From: Aggregicoccus sp. 17bor-14
GTDB lineage: Bacteria > Myxococcota > Myxococcia > Myxococcales > Myxococcaceae
Direction: 5' to 3'
Assembly (NCBI RefSeq): GCF_009659535.1
Contig: NZ_VJZZ01000013.1
Span: forward strand, 62,001-126,000
Length of the DNA stretch: 64,000 nt
This document shows, in pieces, positions 9,562-24,382 of the stretch; the first letter of the stretch is position 1; each line of letters begins with the position of its first letter. The notes under the pieces are model-generated. The model worked only from the letters and a program-made list of their open reading frames with translations. It was not told where the DNA came from and made no database searches. The translations under genes were made by a program, and so were the position numbers.

Positions 9562-9690
9562 GCGTCCGCGCGAGGACAGTAGAGTGCGTCCAGAGGGTCG
9601 GCGCTCCCGGATCTCCCGGCTAGCCTGCACCCCCGCGCGCGGGCCCTCGGCACCGCGACCTCCCGCCGGTGAGGCACACATGAGGTGTGG

Positions 9691-11139
9691 ATGAGCGAGC
9701 GCCGTTCGCGTCCGGGCCGCAAGGGCAGCGTGCACCGCTGGCGCACGCGCAGCCCCGACTCCGGGCACGACTCGAGCCCGGACGCGCTGCCGGCGGCCGC
9801 TCCGCGCGAGGCGCCTCCGGCCGCGGACGGGGGCGCTGCACCCGAGCGCGTCCCTGCGCCTGGCCGTGCTGCGGCAAAGCGCAGCGCTTCGGCAGACCGC
9901 AGCGCTTCGGCAGACCGCAGGGCTTCGACAGAGCGCAGCGCTTCGGCAGACCGCAGGGCTTCGACAGAGCGCAGCGCCGCACCTGCGCGCGCGGCCGGGG
10001 AGGAGCGCGGGAGCTCGGCCGCAGGCGCGGCGAGCGCAGCCCCCGCGCAGCTCGCCGGGCTGCTCGCGGACAGTGTCGCGGATGCGCTCTTCATGCTGGA
10101 TGCGCGCGGGCACGTGACGTGGATGAACGCCTCCGCCGAGCGGCTCTTCGGCTGGCGCCACGCGGAGCTCGCCGGGCGCACGCTGCACGAGGCAGTGCAC
10201 GCGCGGCGTCCGGACGGGCGCCCCTTCCCCGCGCGCGAGTGCCCGCTGGGCCGCGTGGTGGTGACGGGCGAGACGGTGCAGCACCACGAGGACACCTTCT
10301 TCCACCGCGACGGCACGCCCGTGCCGGTGCTCTGCAGCAACGCGCCGGTGCGGGTGGACGGGCAGCTCGCGGGGGCGGCGCTCTCCATCCACGACCTGCG
10401 GCTGCGGCGCGCGGCGAGCGAGGCGGCGCGCCAGCGCGCCGCGCTCGAGCAGCAGCTGGTGGGCATCGTGAGCCACGACCTGCGCAACCCGCTCAACGCC
10501 ATCGCGCTCTCGGTGCAGACGCTGCTGCGCCGCCCCGGAGCGCTCGAGCGCGAGCTGGGGCTGCTGCGGCGCATCTCGGACGCGGCGGCGCGCGCGAACC
10601 GGATGATCCACGGCCTGCTGGACTTCACGCAGGCGCGGCTCGGCGGTGCGCTGCCGGTGCACCCGCGCAGCTGCGACCTGCACGCGCTCGCGCGCCAGGG
10701 CGTGGAGGAGCTGCAGGCGGCGCATCCCGGTCGCACCCTGCAGCTGAGCTGCGAGGGAGATGCGCGCGGGCGCTGGGACCCGGACCGCCTGGGGCAGCTG
10801 GTGGGGAACCTGGTGGGCAACGCCCTGCAGTACAGCCCGGCGAGCGCGCCGGTGCGGGTGGTCACGCGCGCGCTGTCGGCAGAGGCGGGCGACGGCGTGG
10901 AGCTGAGCGTGCACAACACCGGCGAGCCCATCCCGGAGGCCCTGCTGCCCCACCTCTTCGAGCCGCTCACGCGCGGCGAGGGGGCCGCGCGCCGCAACGG
11001 CAGCATCGGGCTCGGGCTCTTCATCGTGCACCACATCGTGCAGGCGCACGGCGGGCGCATCGAGGTGCAGTCCACGCGCGAGGACGGCACCTGCTTCCGC
11101 GTGTGGCTGCCGCGCGAGGGTGCGAAGCCCGCGGCGTAG
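9691..11139 (+). CDS. PAS sensor histidine kinase with repetitive N-terminal tail
   Basis: 482 aa. Residues 1-115 are disordered and low complexity, including six 6-residue units (RSASAD/RRASTE) encoded by an 18-bp tandem repeat. A PAS domain follows (about 120-235), then HisKA with His262 in SHDLRNPL, the family signature LLDFTQARLGG, and HATPase with HNTGEPIP as an Asn-type G1 box and GLGLFIV. The ATG at 9691 has GAGG five bases upstream; a GTG at 9685 is the alternative. It is 129 bp after the previous kinase on the same strand, and the two may have arisen by duplication. No output domain. Confidence 0.9.
   Translation: MSERRSRPGRKGSVHRWRTRSPDSGHDSSPDALPAAAPREAPPAADGGAAPERVPAPGRAAAKRSASADRSASADRRASTERSASADRRASTERSAAPARAAGEERGSSAAGAASAAPAQLAGLLADSVADALFMLDARGHVTWMNASAERLFGWRHAELAGRTLHEAVHARRPDGRPFPARECPLGRVVVTGETVQHHEDTFFHRDGTPVPVLCSNAPVRVDGQLAGAALSIHDLRLRRAASEAARQRAALEQQLVGIVSHDLRNPLNAIALSVQTLLRRPGALERELGLLRRISDAAARANRMIHGLLDFTQARLGGALPVHPRSCDLHALARQGVEELQAAHPGRTLQLSCEGDARGRWDPDRLGQLVGNLVGNALQYSPASAPVRVVTRALSAEAGDGVELSVHNTGEPIPEALLPHLFEPLTRGEGAARRNGSIGLGLFIVHHIVQAHGGRIEVQSTREDGTCFRVWLPREGAKPAA
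9880..9987. repeat. 18-bp coding minisatellite
   Basis: Five clear 18-bp units (9880-9969) and one degenerate unit (9970-9987) in tandem. The consensus is CGCAGCGCTTCGGCAGAC, alternating with a CGCAGGGCTTCGACAGAG variant. Each encodes six residues (RSASAD or RRASTE) in the kinase N-terminal tail. Unit length is a multiple of three, so copy-number change keeps the frame. Confidence 0.9.
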
Positions 11140-11185
11140 GCGTCATCTTGGCGCCTGGGCGAGCACGTCTCCCACGCTCGGAGGA

Positions 11186-11269
11186 GAAGCCGGACGGGAC
11201 GGGCTCCTCTCGTGGGCGCCGAGCGCGCGCGGGCGTCGGCCTGCGCGGCGCTCCGGGGATTCGCAGGAG
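11186..11269. repeat. Left arm of long imperfect inverted repeat
   Basis: Aligned by hand to the reverse complement of 11790-11874, roughly 73 of 85 positions match with one single-base gap. The longest identical blocks are around CGCCGAGCGCGCGC and GCGCTCCGGGGA. The copies face each other across about 520 bp that includes the 25-bp inverted pair. Confidence 0.75.
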
Positions 11270-11372
11270 CAAACTCACGTGCGGCGGGAGCGACGAGGCC
11301 TCTCGCTCTTCACGCGCTTCGGTCACCGAAGTGCACGCGCGTGCGGGTTCGGCGGGGGCAGGTCCGTGCGCA

Positions 11373-11649
11373 CCTGTTCTGAGATGTCGGGGGTTTTGCT
11401 GAACAATTTTCAGAGCTCGAGCGGTCCGCGGGCACAACGGGCGACCCCCGGAGGAAGCCTCACCGCGGGCCTCGGTCGGGCCCCTCGATGCGCAGACGGA
11501 GCGAGGCGCGCGCTACCCTGCGCTGCCCCGGGCGTCCGGGCGCAGGTGCGCAACCAGATTCAACGCTCCTTCTGGTGCGGACCTCGTCCCAGCCGCGAGG
11601 CCTCGAACCGGTAAGGCTTACCGGAAAACCCCCGACATCTCAGAACAGG
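11373..11649. mobile_element. MITE-like unit with 25-bp perfect terminal inverted repeats
   Basis: A 277-bp segment whose ends are perfect inverted copies: 11373-11397 begins CCTGTTCTGAGATGTC and ends in GGGGGTTTT, and 11625-11649 is its exact reverse complement. The interior has no transposase. A second perfect 8-bp palindrome (CCGGTAAG-G-CTTACCGG, 11608-11624) abuts the right end. I find no clear target-site duplication (flanks gcgca and agcgc). It could be a non-autonomous insertion element or a relic; an IS family cannot be assigned. Confidence 0.55.
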
Positions 11650-11704
11650 AGCGCGCGACTCTGCTCCGGGAAGGGGTGCCCTTCGGGGGCGCAGCTCGGT
11701 GCGG

Positions 11705-11757
11705 TGCTGTGTACAAACCTCGGGACTTTCGAAATCTCCCGAGGTTTGTACACAGCA
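11705..11757. repeat. Long perfect hairpin
   Basis: Arms 11705-11725 and 11737-11757 are 21-bp perfect reverse complements (TGCTGTGTACAAACCTCGGGA). They are separated by an 11-base loop that itself contains the palindrome TTTCGAAA. RNA from either strand would form a very stable stem. It lies between the MITE-like unit and the right arm of the outer repeat. Function is unknown; termination, recombination or a small structured RNA are all possible. Confidence 0.85.
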
Positions 11758-11789
11758 GCGCGCAGCACTCCATCCGACACCCCTCTCCT

Positions 11790-11874
11790 CTCCTGCGCTT
11801 CCCCGGAGCGCTGCGCAGGGCGGCGCCAGCGCGCGCTCGGCGCAGGCGACAGGTGCCCGTCCCGTGCCGGCTTC
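11790..11874. repeat. Right arm of long imperfect inverted repeat
   Basis: Inverted partner of 11186-11269. In the minus frame the two arms encode similar peptide strings (LLRxPGAxRRxxPARARR), but both frames are interrupted and compositionally biased, so I treat this as shared ancestry of the DNA and not as a gene. Confidence 0.7.
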
Positions 11875-11915
11875 CCCACAGAGCCGATGCGCGCGGGGCA
11901 CAGCGGGAGCGCACT

Positions 11916-11950
11916 TCCCTCACCCCGACCTTTTCCCAGCGGGAGAGGGA
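11916..11950. repeat. REP-like palindrome (LTPTLSQRE type)
   Basis: Sequence TCCCTCACCCCGACC, TTTT, CCCAGCGGGAGAGGGA with stem CCCTC/GAGGG and inner TCCC-AGC-GGGA. This is the widespread bacterial REP type whose translation reads LTPTLSQRERE. It sits immediately 3' of the minus-strand receiver-PAS gene (stop 11958), a typical REP position. Two relatives occur at 20372 and 24986. Confidence 0.7.
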
Positions 11951-11957
11951 GCACGCG

Positions 11958-12893
11958 TCAGTGCAGGGTGGTGCTCGGGGTGGGCGCCTCGTGATCACTG
12001 CTGCGCCGGCCGCTGCTCCGGTGCGCCTCGGGCACTTCGATCAACGAGAGCCCCACGCCGCGCACGTGCCCGCCGTCGGTGAGCAGCGGGAAGTAGCTCG
12101 CCTGCACCTCGCGCACGGCGCCGGAGCCGGGTGGGTGCTCGAACGCGAGCGGCACGCCGCCCAGCGCGCGCCCCGTGGCGATGACGTGCTGCGCGTGCAC
12201 CTGCAGGTAGGGCGCGAGCTCGGGCGCGAGCTGCGCGAGCGGCGCGCCGCCCAGCGCGCGCTCCTCCGCCACGTCCAGCAGCCGCGCGAGCGCGGGGTTG
12301 AGCTGCACCAGCCGCATGTCGGGCGAGAGCACGCCGAGCGCCACTGGCGCCGCGGAGACGAGCGCCCCGGCGAGCGCCGGCTCGCCGACGCCCACGTCCC
12401 CGTCCGTCTCCGTGCTGCCGCTGCCCACCGCTCCCACCGCGCGCTCCATCACGCTGCGCTCGCGATCGCGCAGCAGCGCCCGGTGCTCCTCGAGCCTTCG
12501 CGCCTGCAGGTAGAGGTCCACGAACACCGCCACCTTCGTGCGCAGGATGTCCGGGTCGTAGGGCTTCACGATGTAGTCGGCCGCGCCGCGCGCGTAGCCC
12601 TCGCGCACCAGGGCCTGCTCGCTGGAGAAGGCGGTGATGAAGAGCAGGGGCAGGTGGCGCGTGCGCTCGCGGGCGCGGATGAGCTTCGCCGTCTCGAAGC
12701 CGTCCAGCCCCGGCATCTGCACGTCCAGCAGCACGCAGGCGAAGTCCTCGCGCAGCAGCGCCGCGAGCGCCTCGCGGCCGCTCTGCGCGCGCACGAGGCG
12801 CTGGCCGAGCGGTTCCAGCACCGCCTCGAGCGCGAGCAGGTTCGCGGGAATGTCGTCCACGAGCAGCACGCTGGCCTGGGCCGGAGAGTCCAT
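11958..12893 (-). CDS. Receiver-PAS protein without output domain
   Basis: 311 aa from the ATG at 12891-12893; upstream in-frame codons are Arg/Pro-rich and unlikely to be translated. The receiver (residues 7-125) has VDD, phospho-acceptor Asp57 and Lys110, all canonical. A helical linker (125-175) and a PAS-like domain (about 185-290, ALVSAAPVALGVLSPD) follow, ending without a kinase. The receiver is very similar to that of the 45016-47556 receiver-PAS-PAS-GAF-kinase (shared ANLLALxAVLEPLGQRLV and LLDVQMPGLDGFETAKLI), so this may be a truncated relative. The 3' end abuts a REP and the inverted-repeat region. It is divergent from a single-domain receiver gene. Confidence 0.88.
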   Translation of the reverse strand: MDSPAQASVLLVDDIPANLLALEAVLEPLGQRLVRAQSGREALAALLREDFACVLLDVQMPGLDGFETAKLIRARERTRHLPLLFITAFSSEQALVREGYARGAADYIVKPYDPDILRTKVAVFVDLYLQARRLEEHRALLRDRERSVMERAVGAVGSGSTETDGDVGVGEPALAGALVSAAPVALGVLSPDMRLVQLNPALARLLDVAEERALGGAPLAQLAPELAPYLQVHAQHVIATGRALGGVPLAFEHPPGSGAVREVQASYFPLLTDGGHVRGVGLSLIEVPEAHRSSGRRSSDHEAPTPSTTLH

Positions 12894-12895
12894 GC

Positions 12896-12980
12896 CCTTC
12901 AACCTAGTCAGCCTCGCAACGCGGGCTCCGCGCGCCTGCCCGGCTGCCCTCCGGCCGGAGGAGCCCCGTGCGGTTGAAGG
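12896..12980. promoter_or_regulatory. Inverted 9-mers in divergent promoter region
   Basis: CCTTCAACC at 12896-12904 and its exact reverse complement GGTTGAAGG at 12972-12980 flank most of the 137-bp gap between the divergent receiver genes. Such paired half-sites could bind a looping or autoregulatory factor. No match to a known operator. Confidence 0.3.
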
Positions 12981-13030
12981 TGCGACAAAGGCCACCGTCC
13001 GTGGGCGCAAGGGGGATAGACGCGACCCCC

Positions 13031-13402
13031 ATGACTTCATCTCCCCCCCGCCCCATCCTCGTCGTCGAGGACGAGCACGACATCCGCGAGGCGGTGAGCG
13101 ACCTGCTGCAGATGGAGGGCTACGCCGTGGAGACGGCGTGCAACGGCCAGGAGGCGCTCGAGCTGCTCGAGCGGCCGGCGGACCCCTGCCTCATCCTGCT
13201 GGACGTGATGATGCCGGTGATGGACGGGCACGCCTTCATGGCCCGCCTGCGGGCGCACGAGCGCCACGCGCGCATCCCGGTGGTCATCACCAGCGCGAGC
13301 CCCCAGGTGCCCGAGGGCGCGCGCGCGCACCTGCGCAAGCCCTACGAGCTGCACCGGCTGCTGGACGTGATCGCCGAGCACCGCACGGAGTCCCACACCT
13401 GA
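13031..13402 (+). CDS. Single-domain response regulator (CheY-like)
   Basis: 123 aa: only a receiver. Acidic pocket VEDE, phospho-acceptor Asp58 (LILLDVMMP), switch Ser/Thr in ITSAS and Lys103 in LRKPYE are all present, so it should be phosphorylatable. The ATG at 13031 gives a normal N-terminus. It lies 34 bp before a receiver-PAS-kinase and probably shares its transcript, so it may take phosphate from that kinase or shuttle it to others. Confidence 0.92.
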   Translation: MTSSPPRPILVVEDEHDIREAVSDLLQMEGYAVETACNGQEALELLERPADPCLILLDVMMPVMDGHAFMARLRAHERHARIPVVITSASPQVPEGARAHLRKPYELHRLLDVIAEHRTESHT

Positions 13403-13436
13403 AGCCCGTCCTCGATGCTGGGGAAGCCGCCGCCCG

Positions 13437-15050
13437 ATGAAGGACCTCGCCCACCAGAGCTCCGCCACCGTGCTGGTGGTGGATGACCAGGAGCCCAAGC
13501 GCTACGTCATCGCACGCGCGCTGCGGGCCGAGGGCTACCACGTGGTGGAGGCGGCGGGCGGCCGGGAGGCGCTGCGGCTCGCCCAGGGCGGCGAGCCGGG
13601 GCTCACCTTCGACCTCGTCGTGCTGGACGTGCACCTGCCGGACCTGGACGGCTTCGAGGTGCTCGCGCAGCTCAAGGCGCACCCGCTCACGCGCGCGCTG
13701 CCCGTGCTGCAGGTGTCCGCGAGCGCGATGGACCCGCACGAGCGCGTGCGGGGGCTGGAGAGCGGGGCCTCGGGCTACCTCGCGAGCCCGCACGACCCGG
13801 AGCTGGTGGCCACGGTGCGCGCGCTGCTGCGCGACCAGGGGCAGCGCACCGAGCGCGCGCGGGAGCTCGCGGCGGCCACGCGCGGGGCCCAGGTGGCGCA
13901 GGCGCGCGAGCAGCGCAGCCAGCAGCTCTTGCACGAGACCGAGGCGATCATCGAGAGCCTGCCGGACGGGGTCTTCGTGGGCACGCGCGAGGGGCTCACC
14001 CGGGTGAACAGCGTGGGCGCGCGCCTGCTGGGCTTCGACAGCCCGCGCCAGGCGCTGCTGGACCTGGACAGCCTGCGCCTGCGCCTGCACCCGCGCGACT
14101 GGGCGAGCGGCCAGCCCCTCGCGCCCGCGGAGCACCCCTTCGCGCTCGCGCTCGAGGGGGACACCTGCGTGCGCGAGTGCGTGCTGCGCAACGTGCGCAC
14201 GGGCAAGGACCTGGTGGCGCGCGTCACCGCGGCGCCCATCCGCGAGGGCGACGAGGTGGTGGGCGCGGTGGCCACGCTCACGGACATCACCGAGGCGAAG
14301 CGCGCCGAGCGCGAGCTGCGCGACGCGGCGGAGTTCCGCGAGCGGCTGCTGGGCATCGTGAGCCACGACCTGCGTAACCCCCTGCAGGCCATCTCCATGA
14401 GCGCGCAGGTGCTGCTGCGCGGGGTGGAGGGGCCGGCCGGAGCCCTGCCCGAGCCGGCGCTGCGCGCGGCGGGGCGCATCGCGGCGAGCAGCGAGCGCAT
14501 GGCGCGCATGATCAGCCAGCTGCTGGACTTCACCCGCGGGCGGCTCGGCGGGGGCATCCCCATCCAGCGCGAGCCCGCCGACCTGCTGCTCCTGTGCGAG
14601 CAGACGGTGCGCGAGCTGGAGCTGGGCCACCCCGGGCGCACGCTTCGCTACGAGGCGCGCTGCGACTGCCGCGGCGAGTGGGACCCGGGGCGCATCGCGC
14701 AGGTGCTCGGCAACCTGGTGGGCAACGCCCTGCGCTACAGCCCGCCCGAGGAGCCGGTGACCATCACGCTGGAGGGCACGGACACGGACGTGCTGCTCCG
14801 CGTGCACAACCGCGGGCCCGCCATCCCGCCCGCCCTGCAGCCCGAGCTCTTCGACGCCTTCCGCCGCGGCGCGGGCGGCGCCGGCAGTGGCACGGCGCGC
14901 AGCGAGGGCCTGGGCCTCGGGCTCTACATCGTTCGCCAGGTGGTGCTCGCGCACGGGGGCGCCATCGACCTGACCTCTTCCGAGCCCGAGGGCACCACCT
15001 TCCTCGTCACCCTGCCGCGCCACGCGCCGCCGGGCCCCTCCCAGGCCTAG
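13437..15050 (+). CDS. Receiver-PAS-histidine kinase with atypical receiver
   Basis: 537 aa. N-terminal receiver (about 8-135): VDD and Asp64 are present, but the invariant Lys is replaced by Ser117 (LASPHD where the norm is KP). A coiled linker (135-165) leads to a PAS domain (about 165-285), then HisKA with His310 in SHDLRNPL, signature LLDFTRGRLGGGIP, and HATPase with Asn-type G1 box HNRGPAIP and GLGLGLY. A kinase with an N-terminal receiver suggests control by an upstream phosphodonor. Loss of the Lys implies altered switching. It follows the CheY-like gene closely. Confidence 0.92.
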   Translation: MKDLAHQSSATVLVVDDQEPKRYVIARALRAEGYHVVEAAGGREALRLAQGGEPGLTFDLVVLDVHLPDLDGFEVLAQLKAHPLTRALPVLQVSASAMDPHERVRGLESGASGYLASPHDPELVATVRALLRDQGQRTERARELAAATRGAQVAQAREQRSQQLLHETEAIIESLPDGVFVGTREGLTRVNSVGARLLGFDSPRQALLDLDSLRLRLHPRDWASGQPLAPAEHPFALALEGDTCVRECVLRNVRTGKDLVARVTAAPIREGDEVVGAVATLTDITEAKRAERELRDAAEFRERLLGIVSHDLRNPLQAISMSAQVLLRGVEGPAGALPEPALRAAGRIAASSERMARMISQLLDFTRGRLGGGIPIQREPADLLLLCEQTVRELELGHPGRTLRYEARCDCRGEWDPGRIAQVLGNLVGNALRYSPPEEPVTITLEGTDTDVLLRVHNRGPAIPPALQPELFDAFRRGAGGAGSGTARSEGLGLGLYIVRQVVLAHGGAIDLTSSEPEGTTFLVTLPRHAPPGPSQA

Positions 15051-15230
15051 CGACCGGGAGAGCGTCCACCACTGGACACATCCGGACTCCCTGTGCCGCC
15101 GTACCATCGCTCCGGGTGCGGGGGATGTTCACCCCCGGATGGCCCGGGGATGGAAAGCGATCCAGCCCCTCGTTAAACCACGCGTTTGCCGCACCATCCC
15201 GGAGCCCTCATCTCGTCCCTGCACCGTTCC

Positions 15231-15950
15231 ATGTCCCCCTCATCCGAGCCCGACTCCGAGTTCGCCTCCGGCCCTGCTGCGTCCAGCGCCCCGTCTCCGC
15301 GTGACGCGCACGTGGCGGCGCTGCTCGAGCGCTACCTCGCGGCCCAGCTCAAGGGCCAGCGCCAGGAGGCGATGCGCCTGGTGCTCGAGGACGGCGTGGG
15401 CGCGGGCCTGAGCGTGGCGGACCTGCAGCTGCGGGTCATCGGCCCGGCGCAGCAGGAGATCGGCCGGCTCTGGCAGGAGAACCGCATCACGGTGGCGCAG
15501 GAGCACCTGGCCACGGCCATCAGCCAGCTGGTGCTCGCCCAGCTCTACCGCCACCTGCCGCGCGACCCGCCCAACGGCAAGCGCGTGACGGTGGCGTGCG
15601 TGGAGGGGGAGCTGCACGAGGTGGGCGCGCGCATGGCGAGCGACTTCCTGGAGATGAGCGGCTTCGACGTGGAGTTCCTCGGCGCCAACGTGCCCACCGA
15701 CAGCCTGGTGCGGTGGGTGGAGGACGCGAAGCCGGACCTGCTCTGCCTCTCGGCCACCATGAGCTTCCACCTGGCGGCGCTGCAGGAGGCGATCGAGCGC
15801 GTGCGCACCATCGCGCCGCACCTGCCCATCGCGGTGGGCGGCCACGCCTTCGAGTGGGCGCGGGGGCTGGAGGACAAGCTCGGCGTCACCTTCTACGGCA
15901 AGGACGCGCGCGCGCTGGTGGCCGGCGCCTGCAAGGAGCTGGGCGTATGA
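15231..15950 (+). CDS. Stand-alone cobalamin-binding protein with CarH-type photosensory motif
   Basis: 239 aa. After a disordered 25-residue start, residues 25-112 form the helical B12-binding-2 cap and 115-239 the Rossmann-like B12-binding domain. The cobalt-ligand motif is visible (E127-L-H129-E-V-G132), as are SAT (174-176) and GGH (203-205). The cap contains W81, nine residues, then E91-H92: the Wx9EH motif that defines adenosylcobalamin photoreceptors such as CarH. No MerR DNA-binding domain is present. The residue after Trp, which is His in Thermus CarH and ligates cobalt after light, is Gln82 here. The stop overlaps the next ATG. Likely a light- or B12-sensing partner for the downstream signalling proteins. 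Confidence 0.88.
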   Translation: MSPSSEPDSEFASGPAASSAPSPRDAHVAALLERYLAAQLKGQRQEAMRLVLEDGVGAGLSVADLQLRVIGPAQQEIGRLWQENRITVAQEHLATAISQLVLAQLYRHLPRDPPNGKRVTVACVEGELHEVGARMASDFLEMSGFDVEFLGANVPTDSLVRWVEDAKPDLLCLSATMSFHLAALQEAIERVRTIAPHLPIAVGGHAFEWARGLEDKLGVTFYGKDARALVAGACKELGV

Positions 15951-16663
15951 CGCCGCAGCCCGAGCTCGCGCGCCGCATCGAGGCGCGCACGCAGGCGCTC
16001 GCGTTCGAGAGCGTGCAGCCCTTCCACCAGGACCCCTTCTGGTACGCGCGCTACGGCGAGGCGCGCACGCGCAAGTTCGGCGACGAGGACGCCGTCTTCC
16101 ACGTGCGCTACCTCGTGCAGGCGCTCGCCCAGGGCGCCCCCAGCGTGATGGAGGGCTACGCGCGCTGGCTGCGCACGCTGCTCGTCTCCCACGGCATGTG
16201 CACGCGCCACCTCGCCCAGCACTTCGCCTGGCTGCAGGAGGCGCTCGCGCGCGGAGGCCTGAGCACCCCCGAGGTGCGCACCGTGCTGGCGAGCGCCCAC
16301 GAGGCGCTCGTCCACCGCGAGGGCAGCGCGGGCACACTCGCCTCGCAGGCGGACGCGCTCTCGCAGCGCGCCGCGCGCGCGCTGGGCCAGGCGGGGAGCA
16401 CCCCGCTGCAGGCGGAGCTGGGCCTGCAGCTGTGCTACCTGGCGGACGCGCTCGCCCTCAAGCGCCCCGAGCTCTTCGTGCAGCACGCCCGCTTCTACGC
16501 CGGCTTCTGGCCGCGCCGCGCCCAGGCGCTGCCCGGCACCCTGACCTATCCGCAGGTGTTGCGCGCACTGCAGGACGCGCTAGACACGCTGCCCCCCGCC
16601 CCCCTCGCCGAGGCCCGCCCGCTGCTGGCCCAGGCGCTGGACGCGGTGCAGAGGACCCCCTGA
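15947..16663 (+). CDS. Unknown all-helical protein coupled to the B12 sensor
   Basis: 238 aa, ATGA overlap with the cobalamin protein and 2 bp before the hybrid kinase, so it is translated as part of the same unit. Soluble and predicted mostly helical, with no low-complexity tail. Recognisable strings include FHQDPFWYARYGEARTRKFG near residue 26, DAVFHVRYLVQAL near 48, HGMCTRHLAQHFAWLQ near 82 and ELFVQHARFYAGFW near 186. Several His and aromatic residues could line a pocket. I do not recognise the family. The context suggests an adaptor or second sensor between the B12 protein and the kinase. Confidence 0.85.
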   Translation: MTPQPELARRIEARTQALAFESVQPFHQDPFWYARYGEARTRKFGDEDAVFHVRYLVQALAQGAPSVMEGYARWLRTLLVSHGMCTRHLAQHFAWLQEALARGGLSTPEVRTVLASAHEALVHREGSAGTLASQADALSQRAARALGQAGSTPLQAELGLQLCYLADALALKRPELFVQHARFYAGFWPRRAQALPGTLTYPQVLRALQDALDTLPPAPLAEARPLLAQALDAVQRTP

Positions 16664-16665
16664 CC

Positions 16666-18813
16666 ATGCGTCTCCAAGATCCCTCTCCTCCTCCCATGGA
16701 GCTGCTCACGCAGGCCGTCGGCGCGCTCAGCCGCGAGCTCGCGCTGGTGTGCGCCGCGGACGGCACGGTGACGTGGGCGGACGCGCGCGCCGCCGCCCTG
16801 CTCGGGCTCACCCTGGGCGAGCCGCTCGAGAAGCTCGCCCCCGAGGACCAGCGCCCGAAGCTGCGCACCTTCCTCGCCAAGGCGGCCGCGGGCCAGCTGG
16901 GCACCGAGGCCGGCGAGTCCGCCGAGTCCGCCGAGACCTCCGAGCCGTGGGAGCTGAACCTGTGCGTGAAGGACCGGCCCACCTGCCTCGCCTTCCGCGC
17001 GAGCAGGCTGTCACGCGCCCAGCACGGCGACGGCCACAGCGTGCTGCTGGTGGGCAGCCTCGTGCCCTCGGACTACGGCAACGTGCTCGAGCAGGTGAAC
17101 GAGAACCTGCAGGAGCTCGCGAACCTGCACCGCCAGAGCGAGCGCCAGCAGCGCGAGCTCACCCGGCGCGCGGACGAGCTGCAGCGGCTCAACGCCGAGC
17201 TCGCCGAGAGCAACAAGGGCGTGCGCAGCCTGCACGCCGCGCTGGACGAGAAGGCGGAGACCCTGCAGCGCACCGCGGAGGTGAAGAGCCGCGTGGTGGC
17301 CAACGTGAGCCACGAGTTCCGCACCCCGCTGCACTCCATCCTGGGCCTGGCGAAGCTCTTGCTCAACCCGGGCAACGGCGTGCTGAGCAACGAGCAGGAG
17401 AAGCAGGTGCAGTTCATCCGCAACAGCGCGGAGAGCCTCTACGAGCTGGTGAACGACCTGCTCGACCTCTCCAAGGCGGAGAGCGGCAAGGCGGTGCTGC
17501 GGCCCAAGAAGTTCCTCCTCTCCGAGGAGCTGCTGGCGCTGCGCGGGATGATGCGCCCGGTGCTGCCGGAGGGCAGCGCGGTGGAGCTCAAGGTGGAGAT
17601 CCCCGAGGAGCCGCTGGAGCTGGAGACGGACGAGGCGAAGCTCTCGCAGATCCTGCGCAACCTGGTCTCCAACGCGGCCAAGTTCACCGAGAAGGGCAGC
17701 ATCACGGTGGCGGCCGAGCGCGCGGACCGCGACGTGGTGCTCTTCCACGTGCGCGACACGGGCATCGGCATCTCGCCCGAGCACCACGAGCGCATCTTCG
17801 AGGAGTTCGCGCAGGTGGAGAGCCCGCTGCAGTCGAAGGTGAAGGGCACGGGGCTGGGGCTCGCGCTCGCGCGCAAGCTCGCGGAGGTCCTGGGCGGCAC
17901 GCTCACCGTGCAGAGCGCGGTGGGGGTGGGAAGCACCTTCACCGTGGCCATCCCCCGGGTGCACCCGGAGGTGGCGGAGATGGCGGGCCTCAGCGAGCGC
18001 GCCGAGCGGCTGGACCCCACGCGCGCCCCCGTGCTGGTGCTCGAGGACGACCGCCAGACGCTGTTCCTCTACGAGAAGTACCTGCAGCGCTCGGGCTTCC
18101 AGGTGGTGCCGGTGCGCACCGTGGAGGACGCGCGCGCCGCCATGCAGCGCATCCGCCCGGCCGCCGTGGTGCTGGACGTGATGCTCGAGGGCGAGACGAG
18201 CTGGGGCTTCCTCGCGGAGCTGAAGCAGGGCGAGACCACGCGCGACATCCCCGTGCTCGTGGTCACCATCACCGACCGCGAGCAGAAGGCGCGCGCCCTG
18301 GGCGCGGACGAGTTCTGGCTCAAGCCGGTGGAGGGCAAGAAGCTGCTCAGCAAGCTCACCGCGCTCGCCAAGGTGGGCCCGGTGGAGAAGGTGCTCATCA
18401 TCGACGACGACGAGGTGCACCGCTACCTGCTGCGCCAGGTGCTGCGCGGCACCCCGTACGCGCTGATGGAGGCGGCCACGGGCCCCGAGGGCGTGCGGCT
18501 CGCGCGCGAGGAGGCCCCCCACCTCATCTTCCTGGACTTCGTGCTCGGCGAGCACACCGCCTTCGACGTGCTGGACGACCTCAAGGCGGACCCGCGCACG
18601 CGCGACATCCCGGTCATCCTGCACACCAGCCACCAGCTCGCCGAGGACGAGCAGGCGCGGCTCAAGCAGGAGACGGCCGCCATCCTCTCCAAGCACACCC
18701 TGAGCAAGGAGGTGGCCATCAGCCGCATCCGCGACGCCCTCAACAAGGCCGGCCTCGGCACCCAGCAGCTGCACGGCGCGCAGCACGGCTCGATGGAGGT
18801 GCACCGTGGTTGA
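16666..18813 (+). CDS. Hybrid histidine kinase with two C-terminal receivers
   Basis: 715 aa. An N-terminal PAS-like domain (about 10-140), a long coiled coil (about 140-215), HisKA with His216 in SHEFRTPL, HATPase with canonical RDTGIGI and GTGLGLALA, then receiver 1 (about 445-560, Asp504, KPVEG) and receiver 2 (about 570-690, IDDDE, Asp624; the usual Lys-Pro reads SKHTL). No membrane segment. The PAS part carries a Glu/Ser-rich insert (GESAESAETSE). It is third in the coupled B12-sensor operon. The tandem receivers suggest a phosphorelay to the next protein or to a distant Hpt, since none is encoded nearby. Confidence 0.93.
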   Translation: MRLQDPSPPPMELLTQAVGALSRELALVCAADGTVTWADARAAALLGLTLGEPLEKLAPEDQRPKLRTFLAKAAAGQLGTEAGESAESAETSEPWELNLCVKDRPTCLAFRASRLSRAQHGDGHSVLLVGSLVPSDYGNVLEQVNENLQELANLHRQSERQQRELTRRADELQRLNAELAESNKGVRSLHAALDEKAETLQRTAEVKSRVVANVSHEFRTPLHSILGLAKLLLNPGNGVLSNEQEKQVQFIRNSAESLYELVNDLLDLSKAESGKAVLRPKKFLLSEELLALRGMMRPVLPEGSAVELKVEIPEEPLELETDEAKLSQILRNLVSNAAKFTEKGSITVAAERADRDVVLFHVRDTGIGISPEHHERIFEEFAQVESPLQSKVKGTGLGLALARKLAEVLGGTLTVQSAVGVGSTFTVAIPRVHPEVAEMAGLSERAERLDPTRAPVLVLEDDRQTLFLYEKYLQRSGFQVVPVRTVEDARAAMQRIRPAAVVLDVMLEGETSWGFLAELKQGETTRDIPVLVVTITDREQKARALGADEFWLKPVEGKKLLSKLTALAKVGPVEKVLIIDDDEVHRYLLRQVLRGTPYALMEAATGPEGVRLAREEAPHLIFLDFVLGEHTAFDVLDDLKADPRTRDIPVILHTSHQLAEDEQARLKQETAAILSKHTLSKEVAISRIRDALNKAGLGTQQLHGAQHGSMEVHRG

Positions 18814-20371
18814 GCAGCCCACCGTCGCCACCATCCTCAACGTCAACGACGACGAGGCCAACCGCTACATGGTGGGCCGCATGCTGCAGATGGCCGGCTA
18901 CCGGGTCATCGAGGCGGGCACCGGCCTGGAGGCGCTGCAGAAGGCGCAGACCAAGCCGGACGTCATCATCCTGGACATCAAGCTGCCGGACCTGAGCGGC
19001 TACGAGGTGTGCGCGCGCCTGCGGGCCAACCCGGACACCGCGAGCATCGCGGTGCTGCACACCAGCGCCACCTTCGTCACCCCGGACAAGAAGGCCAAGG
19101 GCCTGGACGGCGGCGCGGACGCGTACCTCACCCAGCCCTTCGAGGCGACGGAGCTGGTGGCCACGGTGCGCTCGCTCATCCGCCTGCGCCACGCCGAGCG
19201 CGAGATGCGCCGCAAGGCGGAGGAGCTCGCGGAGGCGGACAAGCGCAAGGACGAGTTCCTCGCGATGCTCGCGCACGAGCTGCGCAACCCGCTCGCCGCC
19301 ATCACCACCGCGGTGGGCATCCTGGACCGCCGCCCCGCGCCGGACGAGAAGGAGGCGCGCATGCGCGGCATCATCCAGCGCCAGGCGCGCCACCTGAGCC
19401 GGCTCGTGGACGACCTGCTGGACGTCAGCCGCATCACCCAGGGCAAGGTGGAGCTGCGCCGCGAGCGCTGCGACCTGCGCGCGCTGCTCGAGCACGCGCT
19501 CACCACCGAGCGTCCCCTGATGGAGGCGCGCGGCCTCACGCTCGAGGTGGACCTGCCGCAGCGCCCGCTGTGGATGGAGGCGGACTGCACGCGGCTCGAG
19601 CAGGTGTTCGTGAACCTGCTGGACAACGCGGCCAAGTACACGGACGGCGGCGGCTGCGTGAAGGTGAGCGTGGCGGTGGAGCGGGTCGCCGCGGACGCGC
19701 TCGCCGTGGTGCGGGTGAAGGACAGCGGCATCGGCATCCCGCCCGAGGCGCTCGCCCGCGTGTTCGACCTCTTCGCCCAGGTGGACACCACCCTGGAGCG
19801 CAGCCGCGGCGGCCTGGGCATCGGCCTCACCCTGGTGCGCAGCCTCGTGCAGATGCACGGGGGCCGGGTGAGCGCGCTGAGCGAGGGGCTGGGCTACGGC
19901 AGCGAGTTCGTGGTGCGCCTGCCGCTGCTGCCCGCGGTGGAGGCGGCGCTGCCCATGGCCGCGAGCGCGGGCACGCGCACCGAGCCGCGGCGCATCCTCG
20001 TGGTGGAGGACAACCCGGATGCGCGCGCGAGCCTGCGCGAGCTGCTCGAGCTGTGGGGCCACAGCGTGGAGACCGCGCCGGACGGGCTGCAGGGGCTCTC
20101 CGCCGCCGTCAGCTCGCGCCCGGACGTGGCGCTGGTGGACATCGGGCTGCCGGGGCTGGACGGCTACCGGCTCGCGAGCGAGCTGCGCGCGCGCGCCGGC
20201 CAGGACATCCGCCTGGTGGCCATCACCGGCTACGGCGGGCCCGAGGGCCACAACCGCGCGCTCGCCGCCGGCTTCGACGTGCACCTGGTGAAGCCGGTGC
20301 AGCCGGACGAGCTCGCGCGCACGCTCGCGGCGCTGCCGGTCGCCCCCGCGAAGGACTCCTCCGCGGCGTGA
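18806..20371 (+). CDS. Receiver-histidine kinase-receiver protein
   Basis: 521 aa from a GTG start that overlaps the previous gene by 8 bp and has GGAGGT six bases upstream. Receiver 1 (about 8-130) has NDDE and Asp57, but the conserved Lys is Gln110 (YLTQPF). A helical stalk, HisKA with His157 in AHELRNPL and HATPase with canonical KDSGIGI follow. C-terminal receiver 2 (about 395-510) has VVEDN, Asp445 and KPVQP, fully canonical. With the preceding hybrid kinase it makes a chain of four receivers and two kinases in one operon. Confidence 0.93.
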   Translation: MVEQPTVATILNVNDDEANRYMVGRMLQMAGYRVIEAGTGLEALQKAQTKPDVIILDIKLPDLSGYEVCARLRANPDTASIAVLHTSATFVTPDKKAKGLDGGADAYLTQPFEATELVATVRSLIRLRHAEREMRRKAEELAEADKRKDEFLAMLAHELRNPLAAITTAVGILDRRPAPDEKEARMRGIIQRQARHLSRLVDDLLDVSRITQGKVELRRERCDLRALLEHALTTERPLMEARGLTLEVDLPQRPLWMEADCTRLEQVFVNLLDNAAKYTDGGGCVKVSVAVERVAADALAVVRVKDSGIGIPPEALARVFDLFAQVDTTLERSRGGLGIGLTLVRSLVQMHGGRVSALSEGLGYGSEFVVRLPLLPAVEAALPMAASAGTRTEPRRILVVEDNPDARASLRELLELWGHSVETAPDGLQGLSAAVSSRPDVALVDIGLPGLDGYRLASELRARAGQDIRLVAITGYGGPEGHNRALAAGFDVHLVKPVQPDELARTLAALPVAPAKDSSAA

Positions 20372-20410
20372 AGGGTCCCCTCTCCCCCTGGGAGAGGGTC
20401 AGGGTGAGGG
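20372..20410. repeat. REP element between two kinase genes
   Basis: The whole 39-bp gap between the TGA at 20369-20371 and the ATG at 20411 is a REP-type palindrome (CCCCTCTCCCCCTGGGAGAGGG then TCAGGGTGAGGG, in segments), the reverse-orientation relative of 11916-11950. Its last bases, GGTGAGGG, directly precede the ATG, so the repeat itself appears to supply the ribosome-binding sequence of the next gene. Confidence 0.75.
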
Positions 20411-23179
20411 ATGACCTTCGCAGACCTCATCGAAGCCCAGCAGGAGCGCCTCATCGAGCGGTGGCTCGAGCAGGTGCGCCCCTTCGCCCCGCGCGAGGGC
20501 CTCACCCGCGAGCAGCGGGTGGACTCGCTGCCCCGCTTCCTCGCCGAGCTCGCGCACGCGCTCCGCGACCCGGCGCAGGAGGGGGAGCCTCCCGACTGCG
20601 ACACCATCTCCCGCGCGCACGGCGCGCAGCGCCATGCGCTGGGCTACACGACGAGCGCGGTGGCCCACGAGTACCCGCTGCTCCAGGAGACCCTGCTGCA
20701 GGGGGCGATGGAGGCGGGGGTGACGGTGCAGGCCCGCGAGGCCATCCTGCTCGCGCGCTGCATGGGGGTGGCCGCCGCCGAGGCGCTCAGCCACTTCGTC
20801 TCCGAGCAGGAGCGCGGGCTGCGCGGCGAGTCGGTGGCCGCGCGCCAGCGTGCGGCGCGGGACCAGGCGGCGGAGGCCCGGGCGCGCGAGAGCGAGGCGC
20901 GGCTGCGGGCGGTGCTGGACGCCATCCCCCACCTCATCAACTTCGTGGACGCGCAGCAGCGCTACCTGCTGGTGAACCACGCCTACCGCGGCTGGTTCGG
21001 CGTCGAGCCCGAGGCGGTGGTGGGGCGCAGCGTGCGCGAGGTGGTGGGCGAGGAGAACTACGGGGCCATCCGGCCCTTCCTCGAGCGCGCGCTCGCGGGG
21101 GAGGAGACCCACTACGAGCTGCCCTTCGTGTACAGGGGCGGGCGCCGCGGCCATGCGCACGGCCACTACGTGCCCTACCGCGGCCCGGACGGGCAGGTGC
21201 TGGGGGTGGTGGCGCTGGTGCAGGACATCACCGAGCGCCACCAGCTGACGGCCGCGCTGCAGGCGGCCCGCGCCGAGCTGGAGGTGGAGCGCGAGCGGCT
21301 GCAGAGCCTCTTCGAGCACGCGCCCGCCATCGTGTGCACCCTGCGCGGCCCCGAGCATGTCTTCGAAAGGGTGAACCCGCTCTACCAGCGCGCCGTGGGC
21401 GGCGAGCGACCGCTGGTGGGACTGCCGCTGCGCGAGGCGCTGCCCGAGGTGGTGGAGCAGGGCTTCGTCGCGCTGCTCGACCGCGTGTACCAGACGGGCG
21501 AGCCCTACGTGGGACACGAGGTGCCCCTGCGCCTGGACCGGCGCGGGGACGGGCGGCTCGAGGACACGCACTGGACCTTCGTGTACCAGCCCATGCGCGA
21601 CGAGCGCGGCGAGGTGCGGGGCATTGCCGCCTTCGGCTTCGAGGTGACGGAGCAGGTGCGCGCGCGGCAGCAGGCGGAGGCCGCCACGGCCGAGGCCCAT
21701 GCCGCGGCGCAGGCGCTGGAGGCCAGCGAGGCGCGCCTGAGCCAGTTCTTCGAGCTCACCCCGGACCTGCTCGCCATCGCCTCGCTGGAGGACGGGCACT
21801 GGAAGCGCGTGAACCTGGCGATGAGCGCCGTGCTGGGCTTCAGCGAGGAGGAGCTGCTCGCCACGCCCTTCTTCGACATCGTCCACCCGGAGGACCGCCC
21901 GCGCTCGGAGGCGGCCGCGGGCCGGCTCGCGCAGGGCGAGCGGCTGGTGGACTTCGAGCACCGCGTGCGGTGCAAGGACGGCAGCTACCGCTGGATTGCC
22001 TGGTACACGGCCTCCGTCCCCGAGCAGGGGCTGATGTACTGCGCCGGCCGCGACGTGACGCAGCAGCGGCAGGCGCGTGAGGCGGCCGAGGCGAGCCGCG
22101 CGGAGCTGGAGGCCATCTTCGAGAGCCTCCCGGACGCGGTCTACGTGGGCGGGCCGGGCGGCATCGACCGCGCCAACGCGTCCGCGCTCGCCATGCTGGG
22201 CTACTCGGACGTGGCGGAGCTCAACCGCAACATCGCCACCCTGGCCGAGCAGATCCAGACGCGGCGCGCGGACAGCGGCGCCTTCATCCCGGTGGAGGAG
22301 CAGGCCTTCACGCACGCGCTGCAGGGCACGCCGGACGTGCAGGAGGTGCGCATCCGCCACCTGCGCACGGGCGAGGAGCGCGTGGTGCGCGCCTCCTGCG
22401 CGCCCATCCGCGTGGGCGGCGAGGTGGTGGGCGCGGTGGCGATCAACACCGACATCACCGAGCGCAAGCGCACCGAGCTCGCGCTGCAGGAGCGTGTGCA
22501 GTTCGAGCAGCAGCTCATCGGTATCGTGAGCCACGACCTGCGCGGCCCGCTGCAGGCCATCCTGCTCTCGGTGCAGGGGCTCTTGCGCACGCCCGCGCTG
22601 GACACGCGCACCACGCGCGCGGCGGTGCGGGTGCAGGGCTCGGCCGAGCGCGCGCTGCGCCTGGTGCGCGACCTGCTGGACTTCACCCGCGCGCGCGTGG
22701 GCGGAGGCATCCCGCTCGAGCGCCGGCCGCTGGACCTGCACGCGCTGGTCGCCGGCGCGCTCGAGGAGCTGGAGGCCGCCTTTCCCGAGCGCGAGGTGCG
22801 CCTGCGCACCGAGGGGGACGGCCACGGCGCGTGGGACGCGGACCGGCTGGTGCAGGTGCTGGAGAACCTGGTGACCAACGCGCTGAAGTACAGCCCGGAG
22901 GCAACCCCCGTGCAGGTGCACACCCGCGGCGAGGAGGGCCACGTGCTGCTCGAGGTGCACAACGCCGGGGCGCCCATCGCGCCCGAGCTGCTGCCGCGCA
23001 TCTTCGAGCCCCTGCAGCGCGCCACCGCGGAGCTGGACCGGCAGGGGCGCAGCGTGGGGCTGGGGCTCTACATCGTGAAGCAGCTGGTGGAGGCCCACGG
23101 GGGCCGCGTGGGCGTGCGCTCCACTGCCGAGGAGGGCACCACCTTCACCGTGCGCCTGCCGCGCGGCAGCCCGCCCTGA
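20411..23179 (+). CDS. RsbRD_N-PASx4 sensor histidine kinase
   Basis: 922 aa, soluble. Residues 1-145 resemble the RsbRD N-terminal sensor domain (a helical, globin-like fold seen in stressosome proteins). Four PAS-type domains follow, at about 160-275, 290-420, 440-555 and 565-690. HisKA has His708 in SHDLRGPL, signature LLDFTRARVGGGIP, and HATPase has Asn-type G1 box HNAGAPIA and GLGLYIV. It starts at the ATG directly after a REP element. Co-directional with the B12 operon and possibly part of it. The many PAS domains imply several ligands, but no heme- or flavin-specific residues are evident to me. Confidence 0.92.
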   Translation: MTFADLIEAQQERLIERWLEQVRPFAPREGLTREQRVDSLPRFLAELAHALRDPAQEGEPPDCDTISRAHGAQRHALGYTTSAVAHEYPLLQETLLQGAMEAGVTVQAREAILLARCMGVAAAEALSHFVSEQERGLRGESVAARQRAARDQAAEARARESEARLRAVLDAIPHLINFVDAQQRYLLVNHAYRGWFGVEPEAVVGRSVREVVGEENYGAIRPFLERALAGEETHYELPFVYRGGRRGHAHGHYVPYRGPDGQVLGVVALVQDITERHQLTAALQAARAELEVERERLQSLFEHAPAIVCTLRGPEHVFERVNPLYQRAVGGERPLVGLPLREALPEVVEQGFVALLDRVYQTGEPYVGHEVPLRLDRRGDGRLEDTHWTFVYQPMRDERGEVRGIAAFGFEVTEQVRARQQAEAATAEAHAAAQALEASEARLSQFFELTPDLLAIASLEDGHWKRVNLAMSAVLGFSEEELLATPFFDIVHPEDRPRSEAAAGRLAQGERLVDFEHRVRCKDGSYRWIAWYTASVPEQGLMYCAGRDVTQQRQAREAAEASRAELEAIFESLPDAVYVGGPGGIDRANASALAMLGYSDVAELNRNIATLAEQIQTRRADSGAFIPVEEQAFTHALQGTPDVQEVRIRHLRTGEERVVRASCAPIRVGGEVVGAVAINTDITERKRTELALQERVQFEQQLIGIVSHDLRGPLQAILLSVQGLLRTPALDTRTTRAAVRVQGSAERALRLVRDLLDFTRARVGGGIPLERRPLDLHALVAGALEELEAAFPEREVRLRTEGDGHGAWDADRLVQVLENLVTNALKYSPEATPVQVHTRGEEGHVLLEVHNAGAPIAPELLPRIFEPLQRATAELDRQGRSVGLGLYIVKQLVEAHGGRVGVRSTAEEGTTFTVRLPRGSPP

Positions 23180-23248
23180 GCCCGCCCGTCCCCCGGCCCG
23201 CAGGACAGGGGGGAGGCCGCGTGCGCACCGCCGGATTAGAGTAGGGGG

Positions 23249-24382
23249 GTGGACACCCCGAGCTCCAGCGCACCGCCGCCCCGCCTACAGGAGGCCCCGC
23301 GCGGAAGGGTGTGGCTCGTGGAGGACAGCCCCCTGGAGGCCGAGCAGGCGCGCGCGCTCCTGGCGGACGCCCACGAGGTGCGCGTCTTCACCGACGGGGC
23401 CTCCTTCCTCGAGGCCCTCGAGGAGAACGCGGGAGCGGACGGGGTGGACCTCGTCGTGCTCGACTGGCGCCTGCCCGGGGTGTCGGGGCTCGAGGCCTGC
23501 CGCTTCCTGCGCGAGCGCTACGACGAGGTGATGCTCCCGGTGCTGGTGCTCACCGCGAGCACCGCGCGCGAGGACCGCACGCAGGCGCTCGCCGCCGGGG
23601 CCAACGACTTCGTGAGCAAGCCCTACGACGCGCTGGAGCTGCTCGCGCGCGCGCGCACCCTGGTGCGCACGCGCCGGCTCGCGCAGGCCCAGCGCGAGCG
23701 CGTGCAGTTCGAGCAGGAGTTCGTGGGCATCGTCAGCCACGATCTGCGCACCCCGCTCGCCGCAGTGCGCCTCACCGCGGAGACGCTGCTGCACGACGGG
23801 TCGCTGGACGGGCGCGCGGCCCAGGCCATCGTGCGCATCCAGAGCGCCGCCGAGCACACCCTGGGGCTGGTGCGCGACCTGCTGGACTTCACCCGCGCGC
23901 GCATGGGCGGGGGCATCCCCGTGCTGCGCCGGCCGCTGGACCTGCACGCCGTGGTGCAGGAGGCGCTGCAGGAGGTGCAGGCCGCCTACCCGGAGCGCGA
24001 GCTGCGCGTGGAGGTGCAGGGCAGCGGCGAGGGACTGTGGGACGGGCGCCGCATGGCCCAGGTGGTGGAGAACCTGGCGAGCAACGCGCTCAAATACAGC
24101 CCGGAGGGCACCCCGGTGCGCGTGAGCACCCGCGGGGAGGCGGACCAGGTGGTGCTCGAGGTGCACAACGCGGGCGACCCGCTCGCCCCCGAGCTGCAGG
24201 CGCGCCTCTTCGAGCCGCTGCAGCGCGGCGCCCCCGGCCTGGACGCGGCCCAGGACCGCAGCGTGGGGCTGGGGCTCTACATCGTGCGGCAGCTGGTGCG
24301 GGCGCACGGTGGCAGCGTGGAGGTGCGCTCGTCGGGAGAGGAGGGCACGCTGTTCCGCGTGTGCCTGCCGCGCGGGCCCTAG
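23249..24382 (+). CDS. Receiver-histidine kinase
   Basis: 377 aa from the GTG at 23249. Receiver at about 15-140 (VEDSP, Asp72 in LDWRLPG, SKPYD with the canonical Lys), then HisKA directly, with His164 in SHDLRTPL, signature LLDFTRARMGGGIP, and HATPase with Asn-type G1 box HNAGDPLA and GLGLYIV. No PAS domain, so input must come through the receiver. Its kinase is closely related to that of the preceding RsbRD-PAS kinase, including the PLQRG segment. Its TAG ends at 24382 and the convergent cheB stop begins at 24383, with no bases between. Confidence 0.92.
   Translation: MDTPSSSAPPPRLQEAPRGRVWLVEDSPLEAEQARALLADAHEVRVFTDGASFLEALEENAGADGVDLVVLDWRLPGVSGLEACRFLRERYDEVMLPVLVLTASTAREDRTQALAAGANDFVSKPYDALELLARARTLVRTRRLAQAQRERVQFEQEFVGIVSHDLRTPLAAVRLTAETLLHDGSLDGRAAQAIVRIQSAAEHTLGLVRDLLDFTRARMGGGIPVLRRPLDLHAVVQEALQEVQAAYPERELRVEVQGSGEGLWDGRRMAQVVENLASNALKYSPEGTPVRVSTRGEADQVVLEVHNAGDPLAPELQARLFEPLQRGAPGLDAAQDRSVGLGLYIVRQLVRAHGGSVEVRSSGEEGTLFRVCLPRGP

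Follow-up and report, generated by a model that had tools for sequence, protein, structure and literature searches.

What a light-sensor-type B12 protein would signal to when it carries no DNA-binding domain is the question raised by a locus of Aggregicoccus sp. 17bor-14, a soil bacterium. The window (the whole stretch of DNA analyzed here, 64,000 nucleotides) contains a 239-aa reading frame for such a protein (P0001) that is coupled by ATGA to a 238-aa one (P0002) and followed by a hybrid kinase gene. This layout, which the first-pass annotation had described, was confirmed at the coordinates given in Table 1. The stop codon of P0001 and the start codon of P0002 share the ATGA at positions 15947-15950, and the first kinase starts 2 nt past the globin stop codon. 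In the relatives that were measured, the gap between the B12 and the globin gene ranges from -4 to +8 bp.

Table 1. Features of the operon, with positions in the window.
Feature	Position	Strand	Remarks
P0001, photoreceptor-type B12 protein, 239 aa	15231..15950	+	No DNA-binding domain
W81-Q82 ... E91-H92, upper-face adenosyl pocket/dimer motif	15471..15506	+	Direct reading and alignment; Gln after Trp as in SasPcob; W81 codon 15471-15473, E91-H92 codons 15501-15506
H129, putative lower axial cobalt ligand (ExH motif)	15615..15617	+	Alignment with SasPcob His108; 54/54
P0002, tandem bilin-binding globin (predicted), 238 aa, two globin domains	15947..16663	+	ATGA-coupled to the B12 gene
D48, equivalent to SasPcob Asp270 (biliverdin-binding) and to the phycobiliprotein CXRD Asp	16088..16090	+	Register; 59/59
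W74, equivalent to SasPcob Trp296	16166..16168	+	Register; 54/59
First hybrid histidine kinase, 715 aa	16666..18813	+	Pfam HisKA, HATPase_c, 2 x Response_reg
Second hybrid kinase	18806..20371	+	Fourth gene of the conserved unit; 8 bp overlap with the first kinase

The B12 protein and its nearest relatives

Hidden Markov searches with both proteins found B12 domains in P0001 only and no family for P0002. P0001 contains PF02607 (B12-binding_2, 2e-10) and PF02310 (B12-binding, 2e-22), and a MerR domain was absent in the Pfam search. The protein scored 63 bits against the NCBIfam CarH model (cutoff 400) and far below the cutoff of every NCBIfam corrinoid model, and there was no methyltransferase among the conserved neighbors. 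As read from its sequence, P0001 has the architecture of a stand-alone AdoCbl photoreceptor, a four-helix bundle plus a Rossmann domain. The complete W81/E91-H92/H129 motif without MerR domain that the first-pass annotation had noticed was borne out by Pfam and by the orthologues of P0001, all of which keep each of the residues W81, Q82, E91, H92, E127, and H129 (54/54), so the motif is not there by chance. The annotation had also pointed to a Gln in the place of the His that acts in the light state of TtCarH. This Gln is real and invariant, and SasPcob has the same Trp-Gln pair. Since Gln is the photocobilin state, and the light form of SasPcob is a water/hydroxide-ligated cobalamin and not a bis-His one (PMC10979010), this residue is no puzzle.

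The closest relatives of P0001 in the PDB are the photocobilins 8j2x, 8j2w, and 8j2y (1e-25 to 4e-24), with CarH at approximately 5e-11. In a small tree with modest support, short segments, and one long branch, P0001 grouped with the B12 domains of photocobilins (89/96), away from CarH and methionine synthase. By sequence, photocobilins are nearer to P0001 than CarH is, the Trp-Gln pair included. The histidine that pairs with a propionate of biliverdin in SasPcob, His137, has no conserved counterpart in P0001 (near residue 157). With CarH/LitR (5C8A and others) P0001 has in common the B12-binding_2 and B12-binding domains, the Wx9EH motif, and the lower His; unlike them, it lacks the MerR domain, has Gln instead of His132, and shows lower similarity than to photocobilins. 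Elsewhere in the same genome, 2 tandem genes code for CarH/CarA-like B12 proteins (L004 and L005, G000:C5:93651-95127), and a standard CarH system thus appears to be separately present. AerR is a B12 antirepressor that stands alone, has no DNA-binding domain, and works by protein contact. It matched P0001 weakly (7TE2, E 5.6e-4); unlike in AerR systems, no AerR repressor partner gene adjoins the operon, and we know of no globin partner of AerR.

The partner protein and its predicted bilin site

No accepted family was found for P0002 in either Pfam or NCBIfam. Imm5_like and other weak Pfam matches (E of at least 0.03) were common to few members and were rejected. The AlphaFold model (AF2, 20-sequence alignment) consists of twelve helices, with a pLDDT of 94.5 and a pTM of 0.89. 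When this model was compared with the PDB using Foldseek, the top matches were allophycocyanins, phycocyanins, phycoerythrins, smURFP (target TM 0.73), the photocobilin 8j2w, and haemoglobins; E-values were weak (at least 0.05), probabilities were mostly 0.9-1.0, and the matches were coherent. Among the best 50 matches listed, one fell outside the set of bilin proteins and globins, a designed cage at rank 49. P0002 is internally duplicated (hhalign probability 88%, E 3e-6), and a half-domain profile from which the known photocobilins had been left out matched 8j2x (3.4e-5) and 8j2y (9.6e-5). One profile (A2) held a fused paralogue from the same genome, and the rerun without this paralogue (A3) gave the same outcome. 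The designed repeat protein 7ue2 also appeared in the half-domain searches and was rejected because its score sums six weak copies, none of them strong singly. Judged by sequence and model, P0002 is a tandem globin of the phycobiliprotein/photoglobin/BBAG-2 superfamily, kin of the cyanobacterial light-harvesting proteins, and bilin binding is predicted. The first-pass annotation, which could not assign this helical protein, was right in that Pfam and NCBIfam are blank; structure and profile methods do give an assignment. With such a partner, photocobilins rather than CarH are the closest system, and the sensor probably has two chromophores. The earlier label "CarH-type" hence holds for a photoreceptor-type B12 protein and not for the nearest system, as judged by the PDB matches and the globin partner. 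When 195 genomes of the phylum were searched with a profile, P0002-type globins turned up essentially only in Myxococcaceae.

The numbering of the 8j2x chain is the published one minus 5 (checked on Trp61, Glu71, His72, His108, and His137), so Asp270 and Trp296 of SasPcob are chain residues 265 and 291, and these align with D48 and W74 of P0002. In SasPcob, Trp296 contacts the D ring of biliverdin and hydrogen-bonds the corrin. The D48 register also meets the CXRD Asp of allophycocyanin, and in AbPcob it falls on a His, in agreement with the published account (PMC10979010). Among the 59 globins, W74 departs to Ser only in 4 genomes without the B12 gene, and one sequence has a gap. The place of the phycobiliprotein Cys is taken by Gly45 in 58/59 globins, and P0002 has no CXRD cysteine there. 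C85 was rejected as a general covalent bilin site, being present in 44/59 only. In the second globin half Glu replaces Asp and, in the window, Phe183 replaces Trp.

The conserved operon, its kinases, and bilin synthesis genes

The context of the operon was analyzed in 59 globin-bearing Myxococcaceae genomes, the window included. The B12 gene adjoins the globin gene in 54 of them, and the B12 gene, the globin gene, and the first kinase gene occur together in 53/59, a count that includes a partial kinase match (L035) and a kinase 53.6% identical to that of the window (G120). The second kinase gene is also conserved at most of the loci examined, and the remaining neighbors in the window are mostly not. 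The conserved unit is thus made up of four genes, those for the B12 protein, the globin, and the two hybrid kinases. The same operon was found in M. xanthus AM003 (L054). At least 7 histidine-kinase genes lie on the + strand of the window at positions 6661-24382 (approximately 18 kb), and those upstream of the operon are mostly not conserved at the loci of relatives.

The first kinase is organized as a weak PAS domain, a coiled coil, HisKA (H216), HATPase, and two receiver domains (REC, D504 and D624), and the second one as REC (D57), HisKA (H157), HATPase, and REC (D445). In both proteins the HisKA H-box, the HATPase boxes, and the receiver Asp are intact, and no clear membrane segment was seen; by sequence, the first kinase is a soluble, cytosolic hybrid histidine kinase. 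The sensor pair is linked to the kinases by gene order only, with no sign of contact in the sequences. The proposal of the first-pass annotation that a B12 sensor without DNA-binding domain acts on proteins and is linked to a kinase gains support from the conserved two-kinase neighborhood. That annotation had also named the opposite outcome, a neighborhood of B12 metabolism with no kinases; what the analysis found is two hybrid kinases and, in relatives, genes for bilin synthesis.

One such relative is G120, the operon of which (L125:1304-6864) consists of the B12 gene, the globin gene, a ferredoxin-dependent bilin reductase gene (PF05996, 1.9e-30), and the genes for kinase 1 (53.6% identity with that of the window over 674 aa) and kinase 2 (50.6% over 506 aa). 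In a Kofleriaceae MAG (L061:5661-7074), a relative of the tandem globin is encoded 133 bp downstream of a heme oxygenase gene; the B12 gene was not found on this 12-kb contig. A reductase/heme oxygenase cluster in G114 was judged to be of a different type: by eye it has a V4R-like and an Fe-S-like gene, and no B12 gene was recognised. Heme oxygenase was present in 59/59 globin-positive and in 9/37 globin-negative Myxococcaceae genomes (Fisher 9e-17, a value that is overstated because the genomes are related and phylogeny confounds the test). The genome of the window has one heme oxygenase, and a genome-wide search for a bilin reductase found none in it, which makes biliverdin the likely chromophore.

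In four genomes (G038, G051, G027, and G066; loci L118-L121), the globin is kept, a P0001 orthologue is absent, and the first kinase does not lie beside the globin. These globins retain D48, have Y55 replaced, and carry Ser instead of W74; because the four genomes form one clade, this is probably one event. The loss of W74 is consistent with a globin no longer tied to a B12 protein but is no proof of it. At another locus (L008, G074), a remnant of the B12 gene is left ahead of the globin gene and W74 is still there, and L008 and L051 represent globin copies that are orphaned or decaying, without an intact B12 gene and first kinase gene. At L033 and L041 the B12 and globin genes stay and the first hybrid kinase gene is largely deleted; the second kinase gene was seen at L041.

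A proposed split photocobilin and its alternatives

Photocobilins (SasPcob, 8J2W/8J2X; AbDPcob, 8J2Y; Zhang et al. 2024, PMC10979010) share with the P0001-P0002 pair the B12 light domain and the bilin-binding globin, together with the W/EH/ExH motif and the positions of the Trp-Gln pair, Asp270, and Trp296 of SasPcob. Unlike in photocobilins, the two modules are encoded by separate, overlapping genes, the globin comes as a tandem, and the partner genes encode two hybrid histidine kinases. Because the B12 and globin modules are not fused here, we class the pair as a split variant that would work like a photocobilin. In our judgment, the two proteins probably make up a split photocobilin that gates a kinase relay. 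From the computed domains, residue register, operon structure, and links to bilin genes, we infer chromophore binding, complex formation, photochemistry, and control of the kinases, with its direction, as follows. P0001 would bind AdoCbl base-off via His129, with the light pocket of CarH and photocobilins, and the first globin of P0002 would hold biliverdin through D48 and W74. P0002 would dock on P0001 with the bilin edge to the corrin, as the fused globin of SasPcob does. The Co-C bond would then be broken by green light via AdoCbl, or by red light via biliverdin coupled to AdoCbl. The resulting rearrangement of the adenosyl pocket and the P0001 dimer would switch the activity of the first hybrid kinase, which would signal via its receiver domains to the second one. 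Fused photocobilins are sensitive to both green and red light, and their output runs through proteins, with AbPcob and SasPcob regulating an enzyme in trans (PMC10979010), which makes control of a separate kinase plausible. The chances are about even that a two-protein AdoCbl and biliverdin photoreceptor switches a hybrid-kinase phosphorelay in this way, as a green/red sensor of Myxococcaceae with a tandem phycobiliprotein-like antenna.

Instead of light, the B12 protein and the tandem globin might sense tetrapyrrole supply or redox/oxygen, that is, the level of AdoCbl or of biliverdin/heme, and report it to the kinases. The proximity to heme oxygenase or bilin reductase genes in relatives would suit such a sensor, as would the finding that BBAG-2 globins, which are associated with B12 proteins and bind biliverdin, are photoinert as holoproteins when assayed alone, with no light function demonstrated and the function of BBAG stated as unknown (PMC10151467). 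We nevertheless regard level sensing as unlikely: the W/EH/H adenosyl light pocket is invariant (54/54), the nearest solved relatives are photoreceptors, and a level sensor needs no residue set typical of photolysed AdoCbl proteins. The B12 protein could alternatively sense light alone, in the manner of CarH, with the globin as a structural adaptor to the kinase that has lost bilin binding. The globin of AbPcob binds biliverdin weakly and the enzyme is still regulated (PMC10979010), and the Glu and Phe183 of the second half of P0002 would agree with a loss of binding. Conservation of D48 in 59/59 globins, and of W74 wherever the B12 gene is intact (bar one gap), speaks against such an adaptor, and so do the constant presence of heme oxygenase and the bilin reductase inside one operon; we hold it to be improbable. 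The sensor pair might also share no function with the kinases and simply lie in a region rich in them, as the at least 7 histidine-kinase genes between 6661 and 24382 might suggest. This reading is already disfavored and seems very improbable, because across genera conservation with the pair extends only to the two kinases immediately downstream, and the upstream kinases of the window are not conserved or reach 38-41% identity near two loci only.

A link between B12 proteins and globins in Myxococcales was already known. Rockwell et al. 2023 (PMC10151467) associated BBAG globins of this order with B12-binding proteins in genomes bearing heme oxygenase and reported a three-gene B12-globin-reductase cluster; neither a link to kinases nor a tandem structure is mentioned in their main text. 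Our operon resembles BBAG-2 in that the globin gene lies beside a B12-protein gene, heme oxygenase is in the genome, the pyrrole-binding Asp is kept, and the predicted chromophore is biliverdin. G120 holds the three-gene set of the BBAG-2 type, and most of the operons analyzed here are without the reductase. The kinase wiring, the tandem globin, and the embedded bilin reductase are additions to this picture: in the literature searched we came across no account of the conserved pair of hybrid kinases, of the tandem arrangement, or of the five-gene operon, matters on which a 2022 photoglobin study may touch. Photoglobin, a non-heme globin, has reportedly been proposed by Schneider et al. as a light sensor connected with B12 domains and signal transduction.

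The role of BBAG is stated as unknown (PMC10151467) and the whole-cell biology of photocobilins is unexplored in the studies consulted; through the operon, both are connected with a defined kinase output. If the proposed split photocobilin is real, BBAG-2 globins would have a kinase-coupled function, and the phycobiliprotein fold would be used outside cyanobacteria as a signaling antenna. Because the operon is present in strain AM003 of the genetically tractable Myxococcus xanthus, its function is testable by deletion and illumination, and the three separable proteins could serve as a red/green optogenetic module. The genome of the window also encodes a fused, photocobilin-like globin-B12 paralogue (L093:3809-4843, on G000:C2) in which the order is reversed, with the globin N-terminal and the B12 domain (W/EH/ExH) C-terminal.
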